From: Elioraea tepida
Lineage (GTDB): Bacteria; Pseudomonadota; Alphaproteobacteria; Acetobacterales; Acetobacteraceae
Reading direction: 5' to 3'
Assembly: GCF_019203965.1 (NCBI RefSeq)
Contig: NZ_CP076448.1
Coordinates: 868,001 to 932,000, forward strand
Length of the DNA stretch: 64,000 nucleotides
The first letter of the stretch is position 1, and each line of letters starts with the position of its first letter. The translations under genes and the position numbers were made by a program. This document shows, one piece after another, positions 19,722 through 41,449 of this stretch. Below the pieces are notes generated by a model that was not told where the DNA came from, searched no databases, and saw nothing but the letters and a program-made list of their open reading frames with translations.

Positions 19722-20178
19722 CGCCTTCGTCCCGCCTTCCTTCACACACCATGCCCGGGCCGCCACGCCCGATTAGGGCGCGCAGCCGGGGAGGAAGCCG
19801 CGCCGGCCGGAGCGTGGCGACGCGGACGCACGCGAGCGTGACGGCAAGCGACGCGACCGCCACCTCGCCCTCCTCCCCGGACCGGAACACCCCCTACGCC
19901 AGCTCAAGCGAGGCAGACCCGATGACGGGCGCCCGCGTGATCACGACCAGCGAATCGTCGAGCCGCGCGGGGCGGTGATACTCGACCGAGAGCCGCTTGA
20001 CGACAAAGATCAGGCCCTCGCGGGCGATCAACTGGCTGTGCGAGAGGCCCAAAGCCCGGAGATACTCCGTCCTCGCCCGCTCGGCGAAGCGCAGATAGGA
20101 GGCGTGGTAGACGACCCCGCCAGAATCCGTGTCCTCGAGATACACGCGGCAGGCGAAGCGGTGCGGCCGGTGCTCCAC
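19705..20178 (-). pseudogene. ybgC: YbgC acyl-CoA thioesterase with in-frame amber codon
   Basis: The first 94 residues are a hot-dog-fold YbgC thioesterase: YLEDTDSGGVVYHASYLRFAERARTE-like sequence with the catalytic Asp of DTDSGG, ending ASLELA. A TAG at 19894-19896 then stops the frame. The same frame continues beyond it with GVFRSGEEGEVAVASLAVTLACV and RPARLPPRLRAL, which is what the last strands and tail of YbgC look like. The full length would be ~157 codons, normal for the family. CAG to TAG is the simplest origin. Without the last ~60 residues the hot dog fold is incomplete, so it is probably dead unless the codon is suppressed or is a sequencing error. It sits between ruvB and tolQ, its standard place. 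Confidence 0.8.
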
Positions 20179-20180
20179 CG

Positions 20181-24586: not shown

Positions 24587-24604
24587 CGTAAGGCGGGCGC
24601 GGAG

Positions 24605-24752
24605 CCACCCTGGCCGTTGGCGATGCATCCTGCCGAGGCCTGCTCAACGCAGGTGGGCGCCATGTATCGCGGCCACGACCGCGACAGGGACAGCTCCCAA
24701 TCGGAAGGACAATGGCCCAGGGGATGTCGTGCCTGACGCACCGGGCAGCCCC
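24605..24752 (-). ncRNA. ssrS: 6S RNA (ends approximate)
   Basis: The gap between zapA and ygfA is the standard place for 6S RNA, the RNA-polymerase sigma70-binding regulator. On the minus strand the segment contains CCCCTGGGCCATT and TTGGGAGCTGTCCCTG, which resemble alphaproteobacterial 6S RNAs as I remember them. An apical stem TCGCGG/CCGCGA follows, and the 5-prime GGTGCGT can pair with a 3-prime ATGCATC as part of the closing stem. The ends are estimates. The call rests on synteny, fold and recalled motifs; a covariance-model search was not run. Confidence 0.75.
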
Positions 24753-24764
24753 GCGATTGGCAGG

Positions 24765-29263: not shown

Positions 29264-29635
29264 TCAGCGCTCGATCCGGAACCGTGCCGAGACCAAAACG
29301 TCGCCGAAAGCCTCCTCCACCTCCTCGCCGGGCAGGGCGACGAACACCTCGCGGAAGAACCCGACCTCGCCGCGGGCGCGCCTGACAAAGAGGCGCGAAA
29401 GCGCGTTTGCGAGCGCCCCGCGCGGCGCGAAACAGCAGGGGCATCCGATCGCATGGCGGCGCGGCGCCGGGCCGAGGCGCTCGACCACGGCGGCGGCGCC
29501 GACCGGGAGTCCGGCGGGGGCAACGACCGCCGTCTCGGCCGGGACGTCCTCTGCCACCGCCTCCGGTGCGACCACACGGAGCGGGATCCGGCCATCGTCC
29601 CGACGTGCCGGCTCGCGCATTTCTCCGATCATCAT
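29264..29635 (-). CDS. Small hypothetical protein with a CPCC motif
   Basis: Up to 123 residues; the start is uncertain (29635, 29632, or the later ATG with GGAG just upstream). The core GCPCCFAPRGALANALSRLFVRRARGE resembles the CxCC region of COG0523/CobW-type GTPases (GCxCC-x-RxDL followed by an RRxRGE helix), but no GTPase motifs accompany it, so it may be a stand-alone relative or a remnant. It diverges from the ArsR-methyltransferase gene across a 36-bp gap filled by a palindrome, which suggests shared control. Similarity is from recalled patterns only. Confidence 0.5.
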   Translation of the reverse strand: MMIGEMREPARRDDGRIPLRVVAPEAVAEDVPAETAVVAPAGLPVGAAAVVERLGPAPRRHAIGCPCCFAPRGALANALSRLFVRRARGEVGFFREVFVALPGEEVEEAFGDVLVSARFRIER

Positions 29636-29639
29636 GTGG

Positions 29640-29659
29640 ACATAAGAATATCTTTATGT
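29640..29659. promoter_or_regulatory. Palindromic operator before the ArsR-methyltransferase gene
   Basis: ACATAAGAATATCTTTATGT is an AT-rich imperfect palindrome (8 of 10 pairs match, six-base arms perfect) in otherwise very GC-rich DNA, 12 bp before the ATG at 29672. ArsR-family regulators of the S-adenosylhomocysteine/methionine cycle (SahR type) bind such AAGATAT-type palindromes, so autoregulation and metH control are the likely use. Confidence 0.65.
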
Positions 29660-29671
29660 CATCTGGAGCCC

Positions 29672-30643
29672 ATGGATCAGGTACTCGCCCCCCTGCGCGC
29701 CATCGCCGAGCCGACACGGCTGAGGCTCGTCGCGCTCTGCGCCGCCGGAGAATGGTGCGTCTCCGACCTCACCGAGATCCTCGGCCAGTCCCAGCCCAGG
29801 CTCTCGCGTCACCTGAAGCTCCTCTGCGATGCGGGCGTTCTGGTGCGCCAGCCGGAAGGGGCAAATGTGTGGTTCCGGCTGGCGCGCGAGGGCCCGGGCG
29901 CGGCGCTCGCTGCCGCCGCCCTCAACGCCCTTCCCGCCGATGACCCCACCCGCGCCGCAGACCGGCGGCGCGCCGCCGCCCGCGCGGCCGAGCGCGCGCG
30001 CGAGGCGCTCGCGGCGTTCCGAGACAATCCCGCCGCCTGGGACGAGATGCGCGCGCTCGACCTGCCCGCCCGGGCGATCGAGGAGGCTCTGCTCGCCCGG
30101 CTGCCGCGCGGGCGGCTCGGCCGCGTCCTCGACATCGGCTGCGGCACCGGCCGGATGATCGCCCTCCTCGGCCCGCGCGCCGAGAGCATGCTCGGCATCG
30201 ACCTCTCGCGCCGCATGCTCGCGCTTGCCCGAACGAGGATCGCCGAGCTCGGCCTCACCCACTGCTCCGTGCGCCAGGCCGACATGGCGCGCCTGCCGCT
30301 GCCCGATTCCTCGTTCGATCTCGTGCTCTTATGCATGGTGCTGCACTACGCCGACGACCCTGCGGTGGTGCTCGCCGAGGCCGCGCGTCTCGTCGCCCCC
30401 GGCGGAACGGTCGCGGTGATCGACCTCGCCCCGCACGGCCGCGACGACCTCATCCGCCGTCTCGCCCACACCATCCCTGGGATCGCCCCGGCCGAGGTCG
30501 CCCGCCCGCTCGAGGCGGCCGGCCTCGCGGTCGCGCCGCCGGTCGCGATCGAGGGAGCGCTGCCCGTCCTGATCCACCTCGCCACCGCGCCCGCGGCGAC
30601 GCCCGCCCCGCGCGCCGAGACGCGAATCGCCTCCGTCCTCTGA
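29672..30643 (+). CDS. ArsR-family regulator fused to a SAM-dependent methyltransferase
   Basis: A 323-residue fusion. Residues ~1-75 form an ArsR winged helix (IAEPTRLRLVALCAAGEWCVSDL, then QPRLSRHLKLL as the recognition helix). Residues ~150-300 form a class I methyltransferase with motif I VLDIGCGTGRM at 152-162. In alphaproteobacteria this architecture sits next to metF/metH and probably senses SAM or SAH. No metal-binding cysteines of the ArsR type are in the wing region, which fits a non-metal ligand. CTGGAG gives the Shine-Dalgarno. metH follows 12 bp later; metF, its usual partner, is absent. Confidence 0.88.
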   Translation: MDQVLAPLRAIAEPTRLRLVALCAAGEWCVSDLTEILGQSQPRLSRHLKLLCDAGVLVRQPEGANVWFRLAREGPGAALAAAALNALPADDPTRAADRRRAAARAAERAREALAAFRDNPAAWDEMRALDLPARAIEEALLARLPRGRLGRVLDIGCGTGRMIALLGPRAESMLGIDLSRRMLALARTRIAELGLTHCSVRQADMARLPLPDSSFDLVLLCMVLHYADDPAVVLAEAARLVAPGGTVAVIDLAPHGRDDLIRRLAHTIPGIAPAEVARPLEAAGLAVAPPVAIEGALPVLIHLATAPAATPAPRAETRIASVL

Positions 30644-30655
30644 GGAGACACCGCC

Positions 30656-33600
30656 ATGTCACGCCCGCATCTGCTCGATGCGCTCAAGGACCAGGTTCTG
30701 CGCTGCGACGGCGGCTTCGGCGCGCGGATCCAGGCGATGGCGCTCGACGTCGAGCGCGACTTCCTCGGCAAGGAGAACTGCACCGAGGTGCTTCTGATCT
30801 CGCGGCCAGACATCGTGCGCGAGATCCATCGCAGCTATTTCGCCGCCGGCGCCGACATGGTGGAGACCAACACCTTCGGCGGCAGCCCGATCACGCTCGG
30901 CGAATTCGGCCTCGAGGGCGAGGCCTTCGCGCTCAACAAGCGCGCGGCGGAGCTCGCCCGCGAGGCGGCCGAGGAGTTCGCCGACGGGCGCCACCGCTGG
31001 GTGGTCGGCTCGGTCGGGCCGGGAACGAAACTGCCGAGCCTCGGCAATGTCGACTACGACACGCTTGAGGCGGCGCTCACCGTCCAGGCCGATGGGCCGA
31101 TCGCCGGCGGTGTGGATGCGATCCTGATCGAGACCTGCCAGGACACGCTGCAGATCAAGGCCGCCGTCAACGGCGCAAGGCGGCGCGCCGCAAGGCGGGC
31201 CGCGAGGAGCTGCCGATCTTCGTCCAGGTGACGGTCGAGACCACCGGCACGCTTCTCGTCGGCCCCGATATCGCCGCCGCCGCGACGGTGGTGCACGCTC
31301 TCGACGTGCCGCTGATGGGGCTCAACTGCGCCACCGGGCCGCAGGAGATGGCCGAGCACGTGCGCTGGCTTGCGCAGAACTGGCCCGGGCTGATCTCGGT
31401 TCAGCCCAATGCCGGCCTGCCGGAGCTCGTCGACGGCCGGACCCACTATCCCCTCACCCCGGGAGAGCTCGCCACCTGGATCGAGCGCTTCATCGAGGAG
31501 GACGGGCTCAACCTCGTCGGCGGCTGCTGCGGCACCACCGACAGCCATATCGCGGCCCTTGATGCGATGCTGCGCCGGCGTGCGGGCGGCAGGCTCAGGC
31601 CCGCCCCGGTGCCGCGCAAGAGCGTGTGGGTTCCCTCCGTCGCCTCGCTCTACGGCGCCGTGCCGCTCAGGCAGGAGAACAGCTACTTCTCGATCGGCGA
31701 GCGCTGCAACGCCAACGGCTCGAAGAAATGGCGCGAGCTGCAGGCGGCGAACGACTGGGATGGTTGTGTGGCGATGGGGCGCGAGCAGGTCGCCGAAGGC
31801 TCGAACGCGCTGGATGTCTGCACCGCCTTTGTCGGCCGCGACAAACTCTTCGAGATGTCGGAGGTGATCAAGCGTTTCACCTCCTCGGTGAACGCGCCGC
31901 TTGTCATCGACAGCACCGAAACAGCCGTGATCGAGGCAGCGCTGAAGCTGCACGGCGGCAAGCCGATCATCAACTCGATCAACTTCGAGGAGGGGGAGCT
32001 GCGGCCGCCGAGCGCATGGTGCTCGCGCGCAAGTTCGGCGCGGCAGTGATCGCGCTCACCATCGACGAGGGAGGAATGGCGAAGACCGCCGAGGACAAGC
32101 TCCGCATCGCCCGCCGGCTCGTCGACTTCGCCTGCGGCCGCTACGGTCTGCCGCCGTCCGATCTGATGATCGATCCGCTCACCTTCACGATCGCGACCGG
32201 CAACGAGGACGACCGCAAGCTCGGCCTCTGGACGGTCGAGGGGATCCGGCTGATCCGCGAGGAGTTCCCAGACATCCAGATCATCCTCGGCCTCTCCAAC
32301 ATCAGCTTCGGGCTAAACCCGGCCGCACGCCACGTGCTGAACTCGGTGTTCCTCGACCATGCGCTGAAGGCTGGCATGACCGGGGCGATCGTGCATATCT
32401 CGAAGATCAAGCCGCTGCACCAGATCCCGCCCAAGGAGGTGAAGGTCGCCGAGGACCTGATCTTCGACCGGCGCGCCGAGGGCTACGACCCGCTGCAGGC
32501 GATGCTCGCCATGTTCGCCGACCGCAAGGCCGCCGACACGGGCCGAAAGCGGCGCGCCGAGACGGTGGAGGAACGGCTCAAGGAGCGGATCGTCGATGGC
32601 GACCGCAAGGGACTTGAGAAGGATCTGGCGCAGGCGATCGCCAAGGGGCATACGCCGCTTGCCATCATCAACGACATCCTGCTCGACGGGATGAAGGTGG
32701 TTGGCGAGCTCTTCGGCGCAGGGAAAATGCAGCTTCCCTTCGTGCTTCAGAGCGCCGAGACGATGAAGGCGGCAGTGGCCTATCTCGAGCCGCTGATGGA
32801 GCGCGTCGAGGGCCAGCAAAAGGGAACAATCGTGCTCGCCACCGTGAAGGGAGACGTGCACGACATCGGCAAGAATCTCGTCGACATCATCCTGACCAAC
32901 AACGGCTACCGGGTGATCAATCTCGGCATCAAGGTGCCGCTCGCCGAGATGCTGAAGGCGGCGAACGAGAACCGCGCCGACGCGATCGGCATGTCGGGGC
33001 TGCTCGTCAAGTCGACCGTGGTGATGCGCGAGAATCTCGAGGAGATGACGCGGCTTGGCGTCTCCATCCCGGTGATGCTCGGCGGCGCCGCGCTCACCCG
33101 AACCTTCGTCGAGCAGGACTGTGTCGCAGCCTAGGGGTCGGGGCGCGTGGCTTACGCGCGCGATGCGTTCGACGGGCTCTCGCTGATGGACAAAGTCGTC
33201 TCCGGCCAGTTCGACGACTATCTCGCCGCCGTCCAGGCGAGGCGCAAAGGCAAGCCCTCGAACACGCGCCGCACGCTTGGTGCTGCGACGGAAGCGGCGA
33301 CCCAGCCCGTCGACCGCGCCTATGCGGCAGCGCGTCGGCGACGCCTTCGCGGCAACGACCCGACGCCGACACCTCCCTTTTGGGGGCCGCGTCTCGTCGA
33401 GGCGCCGACCAGGGCGGTGGTGCCCTTCATCAACGAGCGCTCGCTCTACCAGTTCCAGTGGGGCTTCCGCAAACAAGGGCGTCGGCTCGAGGACTTCCTC
33501 GGCTGGGCGACGCAGGAGCTCCGCCCGGTGCTGAAGCGCATGCTCAAGCTCTGCGAGGAGGAGGACATCCTCAAGCCCCAGGCGATCTACGGCTACTGGA

Positions 33601-34157
33601 AGGCTGCCGGCGAGGGCAACGACGTCGTGGTGTTCGACGAGGACGGCACCACCGAGCTTGCGCGCTTCACCCTGCCGCGCCAGGCAAAGGAGGACGGTGA
33701 GTGCATCGCCGATTTCTTCCGCGACATCGACGACGGACCCGAGAACCGCGACGTGATCGCGCTGCAGGTGGTCACGGTGGGGCAGAAGGCCTCCGATGTC
33801 GCGCGCGAGTGGTTCGAGGCGAACCGCTACCGGGACTATCTCTACCTGCACGGGCTCTCGGTCGAGGTGGCGGAGGCGATGGCCGAGTACGTGCACAAGC
33901 GGATCCGTGCCGAGCTCGGCTTCGCCGCCGAAGATGACCGCGACATCGAGAAGATGCTGCAGCAGGGCTATCGCGGCAGCCGCTACTCCTTCGGCTACCC
34001 GGCCTGCCCGCGGCTCGAGGATCAGGAGCCGCTGTTGCGCCTGCTGGGGGCGGAGCGGATCGGGGTGAGCCTCTCGGACGAGTGGCAGCTCCACCCCGAG
34101 CAGTCCACCTCGGCGATCGTGGTGCATCACCGCCGGGCCAAGTACTTCTCGGTCTGA
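30656..34157 (+). pseudogene. metH: Cobalamin-dependent methionine synthase, broken
   Basis: All four MetH modules are present in order: homocysteine domain (to ~31590, with the GGCCGTT zinc motif), methyl-THF domain (~31680-32430), cobalamin cap and binding domains with DVHDIGKN (~32858-32881), and the activation domain (33147 on, with RGSRYSFGYPACP). The frame is broken three times. A 1-nt loss near 31180 lies between two copies of GCAAGGCGG, a second 1-nt loss is near 32001, and an in-frame TAG sits at 33132-33134 where a Tyr codon is expected before GSGRVAYARDAFDGL. The start (GGAG then ATG 30656) is intact. No enzyme can be made without three rescues. Confidence 0.9.
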
Positions 34158-34170
34158 GCCCCTCACCCTG

Positions 34171-34203
34171 CCCCTCTCCCGCGCGCGGAAGAGGGGGAGA
34201 GGG
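34171..34203. repeat. Long GC hairpin after metH
   Basis: CCCTCTCCC and GGGAGAGGG form a 9-bp stem around a 14-nt loop. No T-run follows on either side, so it is a REP-like or Rho-assisted end structure rather than a classical terminator. It begins ~14 bp after the metH stop. Confidence 0.55.
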
Positions 34204-34240
34204 CAACGCGCACTGCGCTGCGGGCATGTCAGTTCAACAG

Positions 34241-34256
34241 TTGAACAGCTGTTCAA
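34241..34256. promoter_or_regulatory. SmtB/ArsR-type metal-sensor operator
   Basis: TTGAACAGCTGTTCAA is a perfect 16-bp palindrome holding TGAACA-N2-TGTTCA, the core recognised by zinc/cobalt/cadmium sensors of the ArsR/SmtB family (SmtB, CzrA, NmtR type). An overlapping GTTCAACAGTTGAAC lies immediately 5-prime. It is 42 bp before the CDF exporter start. Confidence 0.7.
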
Positions 34257-34297
34257 GTCGCTTCACGCACCCGCATACCCCGTGCTAAGGGGCCGCC

Positions 34298-35185
34298 ATG
34301 ACGCGCGAGACCAGCCTCGCCGCCACCAGCATCGGCGTCGCCCTGCTGGTGCTCGGCCGCAAGGCCGCTGCCTGGTGGCTCACCGGCAGCGTGGCGCTGA
34401 TGGCGGACGCGCTCGAAAGCGTCGTCAACGTCGTCGCCACGTCGGCCGCCCTCGCGGCGGTGATCTATTCGCAGCGCCCGGCGGACGCGAACCACCCCTA
34501 CGGCCACGCGAAGGCCGAGTACTTCTCCGCCGTTCTCGAAGGGGTGCTGATCGTCGTCGCCGCCGGGCTGATCCTCCGCGAATCCTGGCTCGCCCTGCTC
34601 TCGCCCCGCGCGCCGGACGAGCCGGTGCTCGGGCTTGCCGCGAACGGGGTCGCGACCGTGATCAACGGCGTCTGGGCGGCCGTCCTGTTCCGCCGCGGGC
34701 GGCGGCTGCGCTCGCCCGCGCTGGTGGCCGATGCGCATCTCATCCTCGCCGACGTGGTCACCTCGCTCGGCGTGCTCGTCGGCGTCGGCCTCGTCGCCGT
34801 CACCGGCATGCTCTGGCTCGACCCGGCCGTTGCGTCGCTCACGGCGCTGAACATCCTCTGGTCGGGCTGGCGTCTCGTGCGCGAGAGCGTGGGCGGGCTG
34901 ATGGACGAGGCCGTTCGCCCTGAGCTGCTCGCGCGGATCCGCGGCATTGTCGCCACCCACGCCGCCGGTGCGATCGAGGCGCATGACATCCGCACCCGGC
35001 ATGCCGGGCGCTTCACATTCATCGAGTTCCATCTCGTGGTGCCGGAGGAGATGCGTGTCGGCACCGCGCACGAAATCTGCGACCGGGTGGAGGAGGCGTT
35101 GAAGGCGGAGATCGCCGACAGCGTCATCACCATCCACGTTGAGCCGCCGCACAAGGCGAAGCATCACGGTGTCGTTGTCGTCTAG
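34298..35185 (+). CDS. Cation diffusion facilitator (CDF) metal exporter
   Basis: A 295-residue CDF antiporter with six predicted TM segments and a C-terminal cytoplasmic domain. The TM2 metal site ADALESVVN has D37 and E40. The TM5 site reads VADAHLILADVVTS, where His and Asp are five residues apart rather than the four of HxxxD, so the first-site geometry may differ. Family members export Zn, Co, Cd or Mn using protons. AAGGGG precedes ATG 34298, and an SmtB-type operator lies upstream. The gene is intact although it lies between the broken metH and btuF; its last 17 bp overlap the btuF start. Confidence 0.88.
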   Translation: MTRETSLAATSIGVALLVLGRKAAAWWLTGSVALMADALESVVNVVATSAALAAVIYSQRPADANHPYGHAKAEYFSAVLEGVLIVVAAGLILRESWLALLSPRAPDEPVLGLAANGVATVINGVWAAVLFRRGRRLRSPALVADAHLILADVVTSLGVLVGVGLVAVTGMLWLDPAVASLTALNILWSGWRLVRESVGGLMDEAVRPELLARIRGIVATHAAGAIEAHDIRTRHAGRFTFIEFHLVVPEEMRVGTAHEICDRVEEALKAEIADSVITIHVEPPHKAKHHGVVVV

Positions 35186-35967
35186 CCTCGCGGCGCTCTT
35201 CTTCGCGCTCGCGCTTGCCGCCCCGGCCGCGGCAGCGCCGCAGCGTGTGGTGTCGCTCAACCTCTGCGCCGACCAGTTCCTCGTCCTGGTTCTGCCGCGG
35301 GAGCGAATCGCCGCCCTCTCGCCGCTCGCCGAGGACCCGACACTGTCGGCGGTCGCGGAACAGGCACGCGGCCTCCCGCGCGTGCGCCCCGCGGCCGAGG
35401 CGGTTCTGCCGCTCAAGCCCGATCTCGCCGTCGCCGGCCCCTGGGGCGGGCGCGGGGCCGCCGAGGCGCTCGAGCGCCGCGGCGTTCCGGTGCTCAGGCT
35501 CGGGCTTGCGGAGGGGTTCGCGGCGATCGAGGAGCAGCTCCTTCGGGTGGGCGACGCCGTGGGCGAGGCGGAGCGTGCGCGCGCCATCGCCGCGGAGATG
35601 CGCGCGACACTCGTCGCCATCCCGCCACGGACGGGGGAGCCGCCGCGGGCGCTCGTGTGGCAGGCGCGCGGCTTCGCGCCGGGGCGCGGCACGCTCGCCG
35701 ACGCGGTGCTCGAGGCCGCCGGGTTCCGCAACGCCGCCGCCCACCCGGGCTACGGCTTCATCCCGCTCGAGCGCCTCCTCGCCGACCCGCCCGCGCTGCT
35801 TGTGACGGCGCCCCCGGGCGGCCCTGCCTCTCTCTCGACAGCGCTCACCTAATCATCCGGCGATCGCCGCCGCCGGCATTCGCCGCGCCGTGCTCGACCC
35901 CGCCTTGCTTGCCTGCGGCAGCCCCGCCACGGCCCATGCCGCCGTGCTGCTCGCCCAATACCGATGA
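35169..35967 (+). pseudogene. btuF: Cobalamin-binding periplasmic protein BtuF, frameshifted
   Basis: The signal peptide (LSSSLAALFFALALAAPAAA) and a BtuF/FepB-like binding protein (RVVSLNLCADQFLVLVLPRERIAALSPLAEDP; PDLAVAGPWGG) read well from GTG 35169 to ~35850. Frame 1 then hits TAA (35850-35852). A second frame starting at CAT 35854 continues the expected C terminus (HPAIAAAGIRRAVLDPALLACG ... LLAQYR) and stops at a TGA that overlaps the btuC ATG. One extra base (or two lost) near 35850 explains it. The last ~38 residues are lost from the product. Confidence 0.85.
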
Positions 35968-36898
35968 CGCCCGGGCTTGCGACCCTGACCGCGACCCTCT
36001 CGGCCCTGTCGCTTCTCGTCGGCCAGGCCGGGATCGGGGTGGTCGACGGCGCGATCCTGTAGGAGCTGCGCGCGCCGCGAACGCTTCTTGCGCTCGGCAT
36101 CGGCGCCGGCCTCGGCGCGGCCGGGGCGGCGCTGCAGGGCCTGTTGCGCAACCGTCTCGCCGAACCGGGCCTGCTCGGCGTCACGGGCGGCGCCTCCCTC
36201 GGCGCGGTGCTCGCCTACTATTACGGTGCCGCCTCGGTCGCCTCGCTCGCCCTGCCAGCGGGAGGGCTCCTCGGCGCGGCCGCCGCCGCGGGCGCAATCC
36301 TCGCCCTTGCCTCACGCACCGGAACCGGGGCCTCGCTCGTGCTCGCGGGCATCGCCGTCGCCTCTCTCACGGGGGCGGCAGTCGCGGTCGCCCTCTCCTT
36401 CGCCCCCAACCCCTTCGCTCTTGCCGAGATCACGGTGTGGCTCCTCGGCAGCCTCGAGGACCGGGGCTGGCGCGAAGTGGCCCTCGCCCTGCCTGCGGTC
36501 GCCCTAGGGCTTGCCCTGCTTCTTGGCCTCGGCCGGCGTCTCGATGCGCTCTCGCTTGGCGAGGCGACGGCGGAAAGCCTCGGCGTCGATGTCGCGGCGA
36601 CCGTGCGCCGAACCGCCGCCGGAGCGGCCCTCTCGGTCGGCGCAGGCGCTGCCGTCGCGGGCGGCGTGGGCTTCGTCGGGCTGATCGTGCCGAATCTCTT
36701 GCGCTTTGCCGCCGGCGAACGGGGCCGGGTGCGCTGCTCCTGCCCTCGGCTCTCGGCGGGGCGTCCCTCGTGCTCGCCGCCGACATTTTCGTGCGCCTCC
36801 TTCCGCTTCAGCAGGAGCTTCGGCTCGGGGTGCTGACCTCGCTTCTCGGGGCGCCGATGCTCCTGCAGCTCGCGGTCGCGCAAGCCGGGCGGTCGTGA
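35964..36898 (+). pseudogene. btuC: Cobalamin ABC permease BtuC, broken twice
   Basis: A FecCD-family permease reading ATG 35964 (ATGA overlap with btuF) through IGVVDGAIL, then an in-frame TAG at 36060-36062 just before ELRAPRTLLALGIGAGLGAAGAALQGLLRN, the family's best-conserved segment. The frame continues open to ~36728 and then loses one base. Downstream, ALLLPSALGGASLVLAADIFVR ... RLGVLTSLLGAPMLL is in the next frame and ends at TGA 36896-36898. Both lesions fall in conserved positions, so no functional permease is made. The GTG of btuD overlaps its stop. Confidence 0.87.
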
Positions 36899-37620
36899 TC
36901 GCCGCGCGTGACCTCGTGGTTCGTCGCGGGGAGAGGCGCGTGCTCGACGACGTCTCGCTTATTCTCGAGCGCGGCATGCTCACCGCTCTCGCCGGGCCGA
37001 ACGGGGCGGGCAAGACGACGCTGCTCTCCGTGCTCGCGGGGCTTTTGGTTCCCGATGCAGGGGGAGTGAGCCTCGAGGGCGTGCCGCTCGCCCGCCTCGA
37101 TCGGCGCGAGCGGGCGCGGCGTGTCGCTTGGCTCGAACAAGGAGCCCGTGCTGCATGGGGGATGACGGTGCGCGAGGTCGCGGCGCTCGGCCGTCTGCCG
37201 CATGGCGACCGGGGAGAGGCAGAGGTCGCGGCCGCGCTTGCCGCCTGTGGGCTCGAGGCGCTCGCCGAACGTCGGGTCGACACGCTCTCCGGCGGCGAGG
37301 CAAGGCGGGCGATGCTCGCGCGCGCGCTCGCGACCGGGGAGGACGCGCTTTTGCTCGATGAACCTGCCGCCGATCTCGACCCTGCCCAAAGCTTCGCCCT
37401 GATGCGCCTGTTGCGCCGCGAGGCGGAACGCGGCCGGGTGGTGGCGGTGGTTCTGCACGACCTCGGGCTCGCCGCCCGCTTCGCCGACCGGATCGTGCTC
37501 CTCGCCGCGGGTCGCATCGCGGCGGACGGCCCGCCCGAGGAGGTGATGACGCCCGAGCACGCAGGACGGGTGTTCGGGGTGAGAATCGGCACCGACGCGA
37601 TGCCGAGGGTTCTGCCATGA
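36895..37620 (+). CDS. btuD: Cobalamin/iron-siderophore-type ABC ATPase
   Basis: A 241-residue ABC ATPase, fully open. It has Walker A GPNGAGKTT (34-42), signature LSGGE (~128), Walker B LLLDEPAADLD and an H-loop VLHDLGLA. The order btuF-btuC-btuD with GTGA/ATGA overlaps defines the import system for vitamin B12. With BtuC dead, this subunit has no cognate partner at this locus. The start is GTG 36895. Confidence 0.88.
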   Translation: MIAARDLVVRRGERRVLDDVSLILERGMLTALAGPNGAGKTTLLSVLAGLLVPDAGGVSLEGVPLARLDRRERARRVAWLEQGARAAWGMTVREVAALGRLPHGDRGEAEVAAALAACGLEALAERRVDTLSGGEARRAMLARALATGEDALLLDEPAADLDPAQSFALMRLLRREAERGRVVAVVLHDLGLAARFADRIVLLAAGRIAADGPPEEVMTPEHAGRVFGVRIGTDAMPRVLP

Positions 37621-38435
37621 GGGTGGCGGCCGCAGCCGCGCTGTTTCTGCACGCCGCAGCACTTGCCCTGATCCTGCCGACCGGCGTGCTGCGCAGAGGG
37701 GCGGACGTTGCGGGCGAAGCCCCTGGCATTCCCGTGGTTCTCTCGCCCGGCGGCGGCGAGGAGGCCGAGGATGTCGAGGGAGTGCCGCCGGATCCGCGTG
37801 ACGCGCACCGAGCGCCCGAGGCTCGAGAGAGCGCGCCGCCGGCCGCGATGGCGCACGATGCGTCGGCGGAAGCGGCAATGGACCAGGCCGCGTCGGCGGA
37901 GGCGACGGTCGAGGCGGTGGCCGAGACCGCGGCACGGACGCCCGCGGAAACGCTTCCGCCCCCTCACGAGGAGGCAGCCACCGCCGCCCCGACGGCCTCC
38001 ACTCTGCCCCTGCCGCCTCCCCCGCCGCCTGAGCCGCCGCCGCGCCGCGCCGAGGCACGGCGGAGCGGGCAGTCTCCCGGCGCGACGGCGCCTGCCGCCT
38101 CGGCCTGGAGCAGAGCGGCGGAGGAGTCGGCCGGGTTCGGTGCCGCCGCCCTCGCCCTCGACACACGCCCGGCGACGGTGGGGCGCCGCGTCGATCCCGT
38201 CGTGCCCCTCGAGGCACGGCAGAGGCGGATCGAGGGAACGGTGGTGCTCGCGGTCACGGTCAGCGCCGCGGGCACTCCGTCGGCAGTGGACGTCCTGCGA
38301 TCGAGCGGCCATCTGCTGCTCGACCGGGCGGCGCAGGAGGCGCTCTGGCAGTGGCGGTTCGACCCGGCCCGGCGCGGCGGCGTGCCGGTCGAGGAACAGG
38401 TCGCCATCCCCATCACCTTCCGCATCATCGACTGA
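37617..38435 (+). CDS. tonB: TonB-family energy transducer
   Basis: A 272-residue protein: an N-terminal TM helix (~2-22), a long Pro/Ala/Glu-rich periplasmic linker (residues ~30-165 with a proline cluster), and a C-terminal TonB domain (RRIEGTVVLAVTVSAAGTPSAVDVLRSSGHLLLDRAAQEALWQWRF-type, ending ITFRIID). It energises outer-membrane receptors such as BtuB. ATG 37617 overlaps the btuD stop. It is intact and may serve other receptors. Confidence 0.87.
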   Translation: MRVAAAAALFLHAAALALILPTGVLRRGADVAGEAPGIPVVLSPGGGEEAEDVEGVPPDPRDAHRAPEARESAPPAAMAHDASAEAAMDQAASAEATVEAVAETAARTPAETLPPPHEEAATAAPTASTLPLPPPPPPEPPPRRAEARRSGQSPGATAPAASAWSRAAEESAGFGAAALALDTRPATVGRRVDPVVPLEARQRRIEGTVVLAVTVSAAGTPSAVDVLRSSGHLLLDRAAQEALWQWRFDPARRGGVPVEEQVAIPITFRIID

Positions 38436-38467
38436 ACGTCACGGCAACGGAACGGGAGAGGAGGGCA

Positions 38468-39060
38468 ATGGTCAGGCTCGATCGCATCACCACACGCGGC
38501 GGCGACCGCGGGCAGACCTCGCTCGGCGACGGCACGCGCGTGGGCAAGGACACGCCGCGGATCGAGGCGATCGGCAAGGTGGACGAGACGAACGCGGCGA
38601 TCGGCCTGTTGCGGCTCATCACCGGCGCGGGCGAGCCTGGTTCGGATCTCGCCGTGGCCGATGCGATGCTCGCGCGCATCCAGCAGGACCTGTTCGACCT
38701 CGGCGCCGATCTCTGTGTTCCGTTCGCTCCCCGCGAGGCGGACGGCGCGGCGCTCCGCATCGTTCCGGGGCAAATCGCGCGGCTCGAGGAGGAGGTCGCG
38801 CGCATGAACGGGGAGCTGCCGCCGCTGAAGTCCTTCGTGCTTCCGGGCGGCAGCCCGGCTTCGGCCTGGGCGCACCATGCGCGGACGATCGCGCGCGCCG
38901 CCGAGCGCGGGCGACGGTAGCCCTCGCCAACGCCGAGCCGGTCAACCCAGAGGCGGTGCGCTACCTCAACCGCCTCTCCGATCATCTGTTCGTGCTTGGC
39001 CGCTGGCTCAACGGCCGCGGCGCCACCGAGGTGCTGTGGCAGCCGGGCGCGACGCGCTGA
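38468..39060 (+). pseudogene. PduO-type cob(I)alamin adenosyltransferase, frameshifted
   Basis: The enzyme makes adenosylcobalamin from cob(I)alamin and ATP. The N-terminal TRGGDRGQTSLGDGTRVGKD ATP-binding segment and VDETNAAIG are intact from ATG 38468, but one base is missing near 38908. Frame 1 therefore reads AERGRR-stop, and the conserved ending ATVALANAEPVNPEAVRYLNRLSDHLFVLGRWLN lies in the next frame to TGA 39058-39060. The lost part contains the RYLNRLSD active-site motif, so the truncated product should be inactive. Its end abuts the end of btuB. Confidence 0.88.
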
Positions 39061-41012
39061 TCACCAGCGCGCCGTGAGCCCGGCGAACACCGAGCGACCG
39101 GGCGTGCGGTAGCCGTTCGTCGGCTCGAAGTCGCTGTCGCCGATGTTGCGTGCGAGCGCGATCAGCCTCAGCGTCTCCGTCAGTCGGTAGCTTGCCGAGA
39201 GGTTCGCGAGCACGCCGGAGGGGGAAATCCCCCGCCCGGCGAATTGCCCGTCATCCGTGTAGAGCACGTCGCGGAAGCGCCCGACGAACACGAGCTCCGG
39301 GCTCAGGGTGAAGCGGCCGAACACGAGTTGCGCCGAGGCCGAGGCCGCATGTTCCGGCCGGCGCAGCAGGCGCGTATCGTCCTGCGCGTCGCGCGCGTCG
39401 GTGTAGGTGTAGGTGGCGATGAGCGTGGCCCAGCTTGCGGGCCGCAGCGTCAGCACCGCCTCTGCGCCCTCGATCTTCGCTCGGCCCACGTTCTCGTTCC
39501 GGCCGATCGGGAACGGGCCGACATACTGGATAAGGTCGGTGATCCTGCTCGAGAACCAGGTCGCGCCGAGCGTCACGCCGTCAGCCAGACCGAACAGCGG
39601 GAGATCGGCTTCCGCCCCCACCTCGACGCTGCGGCCGCGCTCGGGGCGGAGCAGCGGGTTGCCGCCGAACCCGAAGCGATCGAAGAGATCGGGAGCACGG
39701 AAGCTCGTCCCGTAGGCGGCCTTGATGCGGCTTGCGATCTCGGGCAGCTGGACGACGACGCCGAGGCGCCAGGTGTTGGCCGTGCCGAAGCCTTCCGCAT
39801 CCTCCCGCCGCACTTGCGCGGTAAGGTCAAGGCGCCCGAAGAGGCGCCCCTGAAGCCCGGCTTAGAGGCCGTCGCTCCGGTCCGTTTCCTTGAGGCTGGA
39901 GAAGCTCGTGTCTGTGTCTAGACCCTCCCACCGGCGCGACGCCCCGAACGTCACCGCCGCGAGGCCGACCGGCCCGAGATCGGGAAGCCGCAGCGTGTTG
40001 TCGAGCGAAACGATGTCACGCTGCCCCTCAGAGCGGTCGTCCGTGCGGCTGTTAGAGAACTCGTCCGGCCGGTTCCGGAGCGACCGGACATAGCGTGTGC
40101 GCACCACGCTGAGCCGTGTCTCAAGCGCCTCGCCGAGCGGTGTCAGCGTCACCGCTCCCCCGAACACGCCGAGCCTGTCACGCCCCTCGTAGTTCCGGTC
40201 GTCGACGAGGCGCCCCGCGTTGTCGAAACCGTCGAGGCCATAGGCCGCGTAGCGCTGCCTGCCGAAGACGTCGAGCCTGACCCAGGGCGCTGGCTGCAGC
40301 CCAAGCCGCGCCGCCCCGGTCTGGCCGCGGAAGCCGTCGCGTTCGCCTGTGTTCAAGCGCAACCGGTCGGCGATCGCGTTCGAGCCGTGCCGCGAGAGCG
40401 ACTCGAGGCTGATCGAGCCGTCGACGGGGCCGTGACGGAGGGAGGCGAAGACTCGCCCCGACGCCTCGCGTGGGTAGCCGGCGCCGATCTGGGCAGAGCC
40501 TGCGACGGCGCGGTCTGTGGCACGGCGGGTGATGATGTTGATAACGCCGCCGACGGCATTCGAGCCGTAGAGCGTCGACATCGGGCCGCGCACGATCTCG
40601 ATGCGTTCGACATCGCCGAGCGTGTCCTTGCCGAAGTCGAACGCGCCGCCCGGGTTCGAGGGGTCGTTGACCGGGACGCCATCGATCAGCACGAGGGTGT
40701 GCTTGCTCTCGGCGCCGCGGATGAAGGCGAAAGCCTCGGCGCCGGGCCCGCCGGAGGACCGGATCCGCAGCCCCGGCACGGCCGTCAGCGCCTCGGCGAG
40801 CGTGGCGTAGCCCCGCTCCTCGATGGTGCGGCGGTCGATCACCGTCACGCCCGCGGCGATCCGCTCGAGGGGGGTGGGTATACGTGTCGCCGTGACCACC
40901 GTCTCTGGCAGGGCGCGTAAGGGCGATGCCTGCTCCTGCGCCAAGGCGGGCGCGGTGTGGCTCAGGGCAAGAGGGCGGCGAGGCAGGTCCCCGCGCTGAA
41001 GGCGTTGCGCAT
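39061..41012 (-). pseudogene. btuB: BtuB-like TonB-dependent receptor, broken twice
   Basis: An outer-membrane beta-barrel receptor for cobalamin by context. From ATG 41012 (AAGGAG upstream) the signal peptide MRNAFSAGTCLAALL loses one base near 40968; in the next frame it goes on as ALSHTAPALAQEQASP. A TonB box (ETVVTATRI), plug (GVPVNDPSNP, RIEIVRGPMSTLYGSNAVGGVINIITRR) and barrel follow. An in-frame TAA at 39862-39864 interrupts SDGL-stop-AGLQGRLFGRLDL, where Tyr would fit. The terminal aromatic strand (...FAGLTARW) is intact. The B12 specificity is supported by the riboswitch upstream. Confidence 0.87.
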
Positions 41013-41189
41013 GCAGTGCTCCTTTTCTGTCGAGGACAGGCGGAGCGCTGCCGTGCGCGGCAGGACCGAAGCGTCATGACCATGTCCGTCCGCCCCCCAG
41101 CGGCACGACACACCCCACCCGGTTGTCGCCGCATGCGGACTTCTGTCCGTTGCGCAGGTTCACCCCGCCCCGCGCGCGCGAATGACTGG

Positions 41190-41390
41190 CGCCGGCCGGT
41201 CTCCTGGCTCGCGAGGGAGGGCGATCGCCCTGCGCTCCTGCCGCCTTCCCAGACGATGCGGTGCCGCATCATCCAGTGGCCTGCGCCACAAACTCCTCGC
41301 CTACAGTTGCGGGGGCGGCCGCGGCTCCGGACGGAAGGCCCTCACCCCGTTCCCGTTTCAGTCCTCTCGGGCCACCGACGCCACAAACGA
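41190..41390 (-). promoter_or_regulatory. Cobalamin riboswitch
   Basis: On the minus strand, in order: GGTGGCCCGAGAGGACTGAAACGGGAA-type start (near 41380-41350), GGGTGAGG, the CCCCGCAACTGTAG core (~41315-41301), a CCACTGG element, GGGAAGG, and the B12 box GCGAGCCAGGAGACCGGCC at 41212-41194. These are the conserved parts of the AdoCbl riboswitch in the correct order. It lies ~180 nt before the btuB start. High adenosylcobalamin would switch off btuB, though the gene is now broken. Confidence 0.93.
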
Positions 41391-41449
41391 GCGTGCACCG
41401 GTCGTCTCCGTGCCGCAACCCCTTGACAGGAGTCGCGACGCGATCCCGG

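Follow-up and report, generated by a model that had tools for sequence, protein, structure and literature searches.

What has become of a bacterium in which genes for the uptake, adenosylation and use of cobalamin (vitamin B12) lie side by side with broken reading frames? We addressed this question in Elioraea tepida, a bacterium from hot springs, using the genome of strain MS-P2 (CP076448, one contig of 3,367,643 bases, coded here as G000:C1) and a 64-kb window of it (G000:C1:868001-932000) that holds the cobalamin region listed in Table 1; feature coordinates are window positions unless marked otherwise. A preliminary description of the window had suggested that the lineage no longer needs the vitamin, and this stands as the best reading of the genome-wide evidence from metE, bchE, queG and ribonucleotide reductase. 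As predicted from the sequence, E. tepida probably no longer needs B12, the methionine synthase gene metE having replaced the B12-dependent metH and the B12 regulon having then decayed.

Lesions were called by frameshift-aware protein-to-DNA alignment of proteins from two references of the same genus, E. rosea PF-30 (G001, L002) and the Elioraea metagenome-assembled genome bin.267 (G002, L003), against E. tepida DNA. By rule, lesions less than 20 residues from a gene end were ignored, which excluded a shift at G000:C1:879139, 11 residues from the start. A hidden Markov model that detects frame breaks without a reference miscalled overlapping normal genes as frameshifts and missed several lesions, and served for the choice of reference proteins alone.

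The nine frame lesions described earlier in metH, btuF, btuC, the adenosyltransferase gene and btuB were all recovered, seven of them with both sisters (flanking identity 0.65-1.0) and the two in btuB on weaker alignments. metH has lost one base near 31176 and another near 32000 and is interrupted by an in-frame TAG at 33132-33134; btuF has gained one base near 35853; btuC has a frameshift near 36727 as well as a TAG at 36060-36062; and the frame of the adenosyltransferase gene shifts near 38910. The shifts in btuC and the adenosyltransferase gene, given earlier as one-base losses, were scored in our alignments as gains of two bases, an equivalent change of frame. Comparison with the closest relatives showed metH there as one frame of 1170-1234 amino acids and the other broken genes also as single open frames; apart from btuB, the broken genes of E. 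tepida remain about 71-90% identical to these working copies. Both the frame list and the alignments show open frames, as had been stated, for the regulator, the CDF gene, btuD and tonB.

In btuB, a TAA at 39862-39864, the site at which the reading frame closes in the frame list, appeared in alignments to all four relatives used for this gene, but with local flanking identity under the filter. A shift near 40955, in the signal peptide, was called with one of the four references (L003) and not with L002; the other two (L004 and L006) are trimmed and end short of this site. The frames inspected by eye are compatible with this shift, which is probable and is the weakest of the nine lesions. As a separate observation, the broken btuB shares 47% identity with its E. 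rosea counterpart, as against 68% between the btuB genes of E. rosea and G002; most genes neighbouring btuB are 71-90% identical to those of relatives, and tonB 54-59%. Either an older replacement of btuB in E. tepida or rapid evolution of the receptor may account for this.

A search of the genome for metE, put forward earlier as a check, found the gene as one full-length open frame (771 amino acids from the likely start), the two-domain product of which passes NF003556 (1085 bits, cut-off 541) and TIGR01371 (1026 bits, cut-off 930). A cobalamin riboswitch lies directly upstream (G000:C1:1446768-1446993; 87.7 bits, RF00174 gathering score 31.5). The sisters gave only weak matches to the MetE N-domain (E 5.0e-4 in G001 and 9.8e-4 in G002), and each has one cobalamin riboswitch, upstream of its btuB. 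The single match to the MetH activation domain in the E. tepida genome is the broken copy. Across the Acetobacteraceae, the MetE N-domain was above cut-off in 77 of 200 genomes and the MetH activation domain in 173, and 19 of 20 fetched metE loci of the family carry a cobalamin riboswitch (one barely above cut-off).

In a MetE tree (19 rows, quick method, support by Shimodaira-Hasegawa-like approximate likelihood ratio test only), E. tepida stood beside G105, G048 and G127 (support 92) within a group of support 98, and in the MetH tree it fell inside a five-row Elioraea clade (support 100). Its MetE is 0.83-0.84 identical to those of the same three genomes, which exceeds by about 0.18 the value predicted from MetH identity (z 2.9, from a fit to 153 non-independent pairs of 18 genomes chosen from match lists and not randomly). 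The MetE with the highest identity (0.86; L225 of G037) was left out of the trees, no metH place being listed for it. The simplest reading is that the unit of riboswitch and metE was probably transferred from another Acetobacteraceae lineage; vertical descent of metE and its loss from the sisters could also be envisaged but would leave the discordant tree unexplained. Elsewhere in the family, the metE genes of G048 (L227) and G127 (L232) are 99% identical and their metH genes 93%, possibly the trace of another metE transfer.

The genome was also searched for further enzymes that depend on B12 and, by one marker, for the cob pathway, both likewise proposed as checks. The bchE gene, 240 kb from the cobalamin region, has lost one base at G000:C1:657372, and the BchE match ends at position 390 of 497; acsF, its oxygen-dependent counterpart, is intact, and bchE is the only one of 43 comparable genes in the photosynthesis-gene stretch (565-688 kb) with a lesion. 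There was no match to queG in the E. tepida genome and one in each sister, and no match to methylmalonyl-CoA mutase in any of the three genus genomes. The ribonucleotide reductase alpha subunit is class I (NF006577, 1031 bits, cut-off 620; class II model TIGR02504, 285.7 bits, under its cut-off of 399.95), and its gene is adjoined by one that appears beta-like by eye. B12-binding domains gave three matches in E. tepida: metH, bchE and one intact gene (L134:1453-2475, minus strand), putatively for an AerR/PpaA-like regulator. Because CobS, the sole cob marker searched, had no match in the three genomes, the genus is predicted, with CobS as the single marker, to be no B12 producer; the species paper also describes E. 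tepida as without B12 synthesis (PMC8781829).

The course of events that we propose starts from an Elioraea ancestor that was probably no B12 maker and imported the vitamin via BtuB, BtuFCD and the adenosyltransferase, to be used by MetH and, judging by E. rosea, by BchE and QueG. A metE gene with its own riboswitch would then have entered the E. tepida lineage, probably from elsewhere in the family. MetE would supply methionine without B12, AcsF would cover the chlorophyll step in oxygen and the ribonucleotide reductase is class I, so that no enzyme tested here would still require B12 and the organism would be expected to grow without it. Subsequently metH, the uptake genes, the adenosyltransferase gene, btuB and bchE would have become pseudogenes and queG would have been lost. 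Adenosylcobalamin would hardly form, if at all, once uptake and adenosylation were broken, and the metE riboswitch would stay ON.

Several points weigh against this replacement of metH by metE followed by decay. The MetE C-domain was searched for in the E. tepida genome only, and the searches bearing on B12 independence were limited to MetH, BchE, QueG, methylmalonyl-CoA mutase and ribonucleotide reductase. bchE carries a single lesion, and because no bchE was seen in G002 (its three B12-binding matches being metH and two genes that are AerR/PpaA-like by eye), E. tepida may not be alone in having lost this gene. Intact copies of btuD and tonB remain, and the intact B12-binding gene persists although the genome seems unable to import B12. 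Finally, amino-acid replacements are not raised in the broken genes: metH, btuF, btuC and the adenosyltransferase gene show 129 on their own lineage and 82 on that of E. rosea, the corresponding counts over 58 control genes being 1667 and 772 (a difference opposite in direction to relaxed selection; chi-square p = 0.04).

A signal of relaxed selection, for which the preliminary description had advised looking in the repaired frames, thus did not appear in the replacement-rate test, the own-lineage share in the broken genes (0.61) falling within the range of random five-gene control sets (0.53-0.85). About 29 missense changes are expected per nonsense change, which would predict some excess, and one could have escaped a test of such low power. 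Since own-lineage replacements are not raised, the decay of the B12 genes would appear to be recent, or else its first hits were selected.

Selection of the first hits would refine, and not exclude, the replacement of metH by metE. Once metH had failed, incoming B12 would have shut the riboswitch-controlled metE and with it the supply of methionine; a first knock-out of uptake or adenosylation would therefore have been favoured, and later lesions would have been neutral. Consistent with this, metE carries a cobalamin riboswitch, the hits strike uptake and adenosylation (the step that makes adenosylcobalamin), the broken genes show no missense build-up, and sensitivity to added B12 is seen in a Mycobacterium tuberculosis strain that has a truncated metH and a metE under riboswitch control (PMC8088520). 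After the first hit, however, further hits in the pathway would bring no added benefit; the rate test has little power; the function of the metE riboswitch is itself a prediction; and metH-less M. smegmatis was inhibited by B12 in liquid and not on solid medium (PMC8088520). We therefore hold selected loss to be a tentative refinement. A bolder version, which we offer as speculation, is that E. tepida shows a B12 auxotroph on its way to full B12 independence following a single transfer of riboswitch and metE, the vitamin having become harmful once metH failed, selection having cut uptake and adenosylation, and the riboswitch now being a relic held ON.

The alternative to any decay of a B12 regulon after metE gain is assembly error, with indels left uncorrected in a weak stretch of the genome, which was assembled with Canu 1.8 from PacBio Sequel reads (PMC8781829). 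Small indels make up seven of the ten lesions (nine in the window, and that of bchE), and the lack of excess amino-acid replacements in the broken genes would suit such an error. The lesions are, however, concentrated by gene function: eight fall in six B12 genes (metH, btuF, btuC, btuD, the adenosyltransferase gene and, outside the window, bchE; 2,734 codons) and just two in 104 control genes (34,981 codons; binomial p = 3e-8, a guide only, as the region was picked for looking broken). From this count btuB was omitted, its divergence being too high for the identity filter, and bchE, like queG, was found later through searches for B12-dependent proteins. The control genes were those with a G001 or G002 reference stretch at hand, and no random genome sample; 63, 43, 1 and 3 genes were available per compared stretch (B12 genes included), and four 20-kb own stretches (at 200, 1700, 2200 and 2700 kb) yielded no control gene passing the filters. 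Both control lesions were counted, one being a two-base shift at genome position 886474 called with one reference only (flanking identity 0.40-0.45) and the other a solid in-frame stop at window position 19894. The gene with this stop (19753-20180, minus strand), which loses about its last third, is 72-78% identical to both relatives and presumably encodes a YbgC-type thioesterase, a resemblance that no family call confirmed.

Given this concentration in B12 genes, the lesions are unlikely to stem from general assembly error. Three of the lesions, moreover, are substitutions creating stops, the four neighbouring open genes carry none, and the indel sites lack long homopolymers (within 16 bases of the seven indels, including that of bchE, the longest single-base run is 2-4; a run of four occurs at two of the seven and at 12% of random places). 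The presence of metE and the missing queG match are also independent of single base calls, and we consider misassembly of a weak stretch highly improbable. For the 'coordinated' decay claimed in the preliminary description, what the data show is a concentration by function.

That E. tepida instead lost methionine synthesis and imports methionine, its B12 genes decaying in consequence, would agree with the yeast extract in the cultures and with the missing methionine synthase and the methionine transporter reported in the species paper (PMC8781829), but is hardly credible for a genome in which metE is open, of full length and above both MetE equivalog cut-offs. Judged on its sequence, the published genome description needs correction: metE is intact, metH is broken, and bchE, which together with acsF was reported to permit chlorophyll synthesis with and without oxygen (PMC8781829), is frame-broken.

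Table 1. Features of the cobalamin region of E. tepida MS-P2 (window positions).
Feature	Position	Strand	Basis of assignment
ArsR-type regulator fused to methyltransferase, open	29453..30643	+	NF033788 helix-turn-helix above cut-off; homology of relatives from ~29672
metH, B12-dependent methionine synthase, broken	30656..34157	+	TIGR02082 on C-terminal piece, partial, under whole-protein cut-off
CDF-family cation efflux gene, open	34298..35185	+	MntE-like, under the cut-off of that model
btuF-like periplasmic binding protein, broken	35184..35964	+	Pfam Peripla_BP_2 on intact E. rosea orthologue
btuC-like permease, broken	35952..36895	+	Pfam FecCD on E. rosea orthologue
btuD-like ABC ATPase, open	36889..37620	+	NCBIfam BtuD model 133.9 bits, under cut-off 281
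tonB-like gene, open	37617..38435	+	TonB_C above cut-off
PduO-type cobalamin adenosyltransferase, broken	38443..39060	+	TIGR00636 above cut-off
btuB-like TonB-dependent receptor, broken	39061..41012	-	Pfam receptor domains on E. rosea orthologue
Cobalamin riboswitch (RF00174) upstream of btuB	41177..41394	-	74.8 bits; gathering score 31.5

The btuFCD-type transporter would carry B12, because of its neighbouring genes and the cobalamin riboswitch on the receptor gene, a riboswitch whose core is conserved in relatives. Elsewhere in the window, a 6S RNA was found at 24598-24754 (minus strand, 61 bits).

The kind of event seen here is already known, and the E. tepida case is unusually complete. 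M. tuberculosis CDC1551 likewise has a truncated metH and keeps metE under the control of a cobalamin riboswitch (PMC4428469, PMC8088520), and added B12 is inhibitory in this strain (PMC8088520). Unlike M. tuberculosis, in which some strains have a metH deletion, E. tepida also has uptake, adenosylation, the receptor gene and bchE broken and queG unmatched, and its metE looks newly acquired. The switching between metE and metH across the Acetobacteraceae, to which the family counts and the riboswitches at metE loci given above belong, is alike in kind, but E. tepida still shows the replaced metH and the transport genes as fresh pseudogenes. In algae, B12 auxotrophy can arise by metE loss, and the choice between MetE and MetH sets the need for B12; E. 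tepida would have gone in the opposite direction, metE being gained and B12 use lost. Among the literature matches listed on metE gain and B12-regulon decay none concerned Elioraea, from which no wider absence from print is claimed; the species name Elioraea tepida itself occurs in four papers.

How dependence on B12 is gained and lost shapes microbial communities, and an intermediate stage of this transition is, to our knowledge, rarely observed. In E. tepida, a cultured and named species, one genome still holds the replaced enzyme, its importers and the replacement, and intact sister species allow comparison. This makes it testable whether the gain of metE drives the loss of B12 use, and whether the riboswitch on metE makes B12 a liability.

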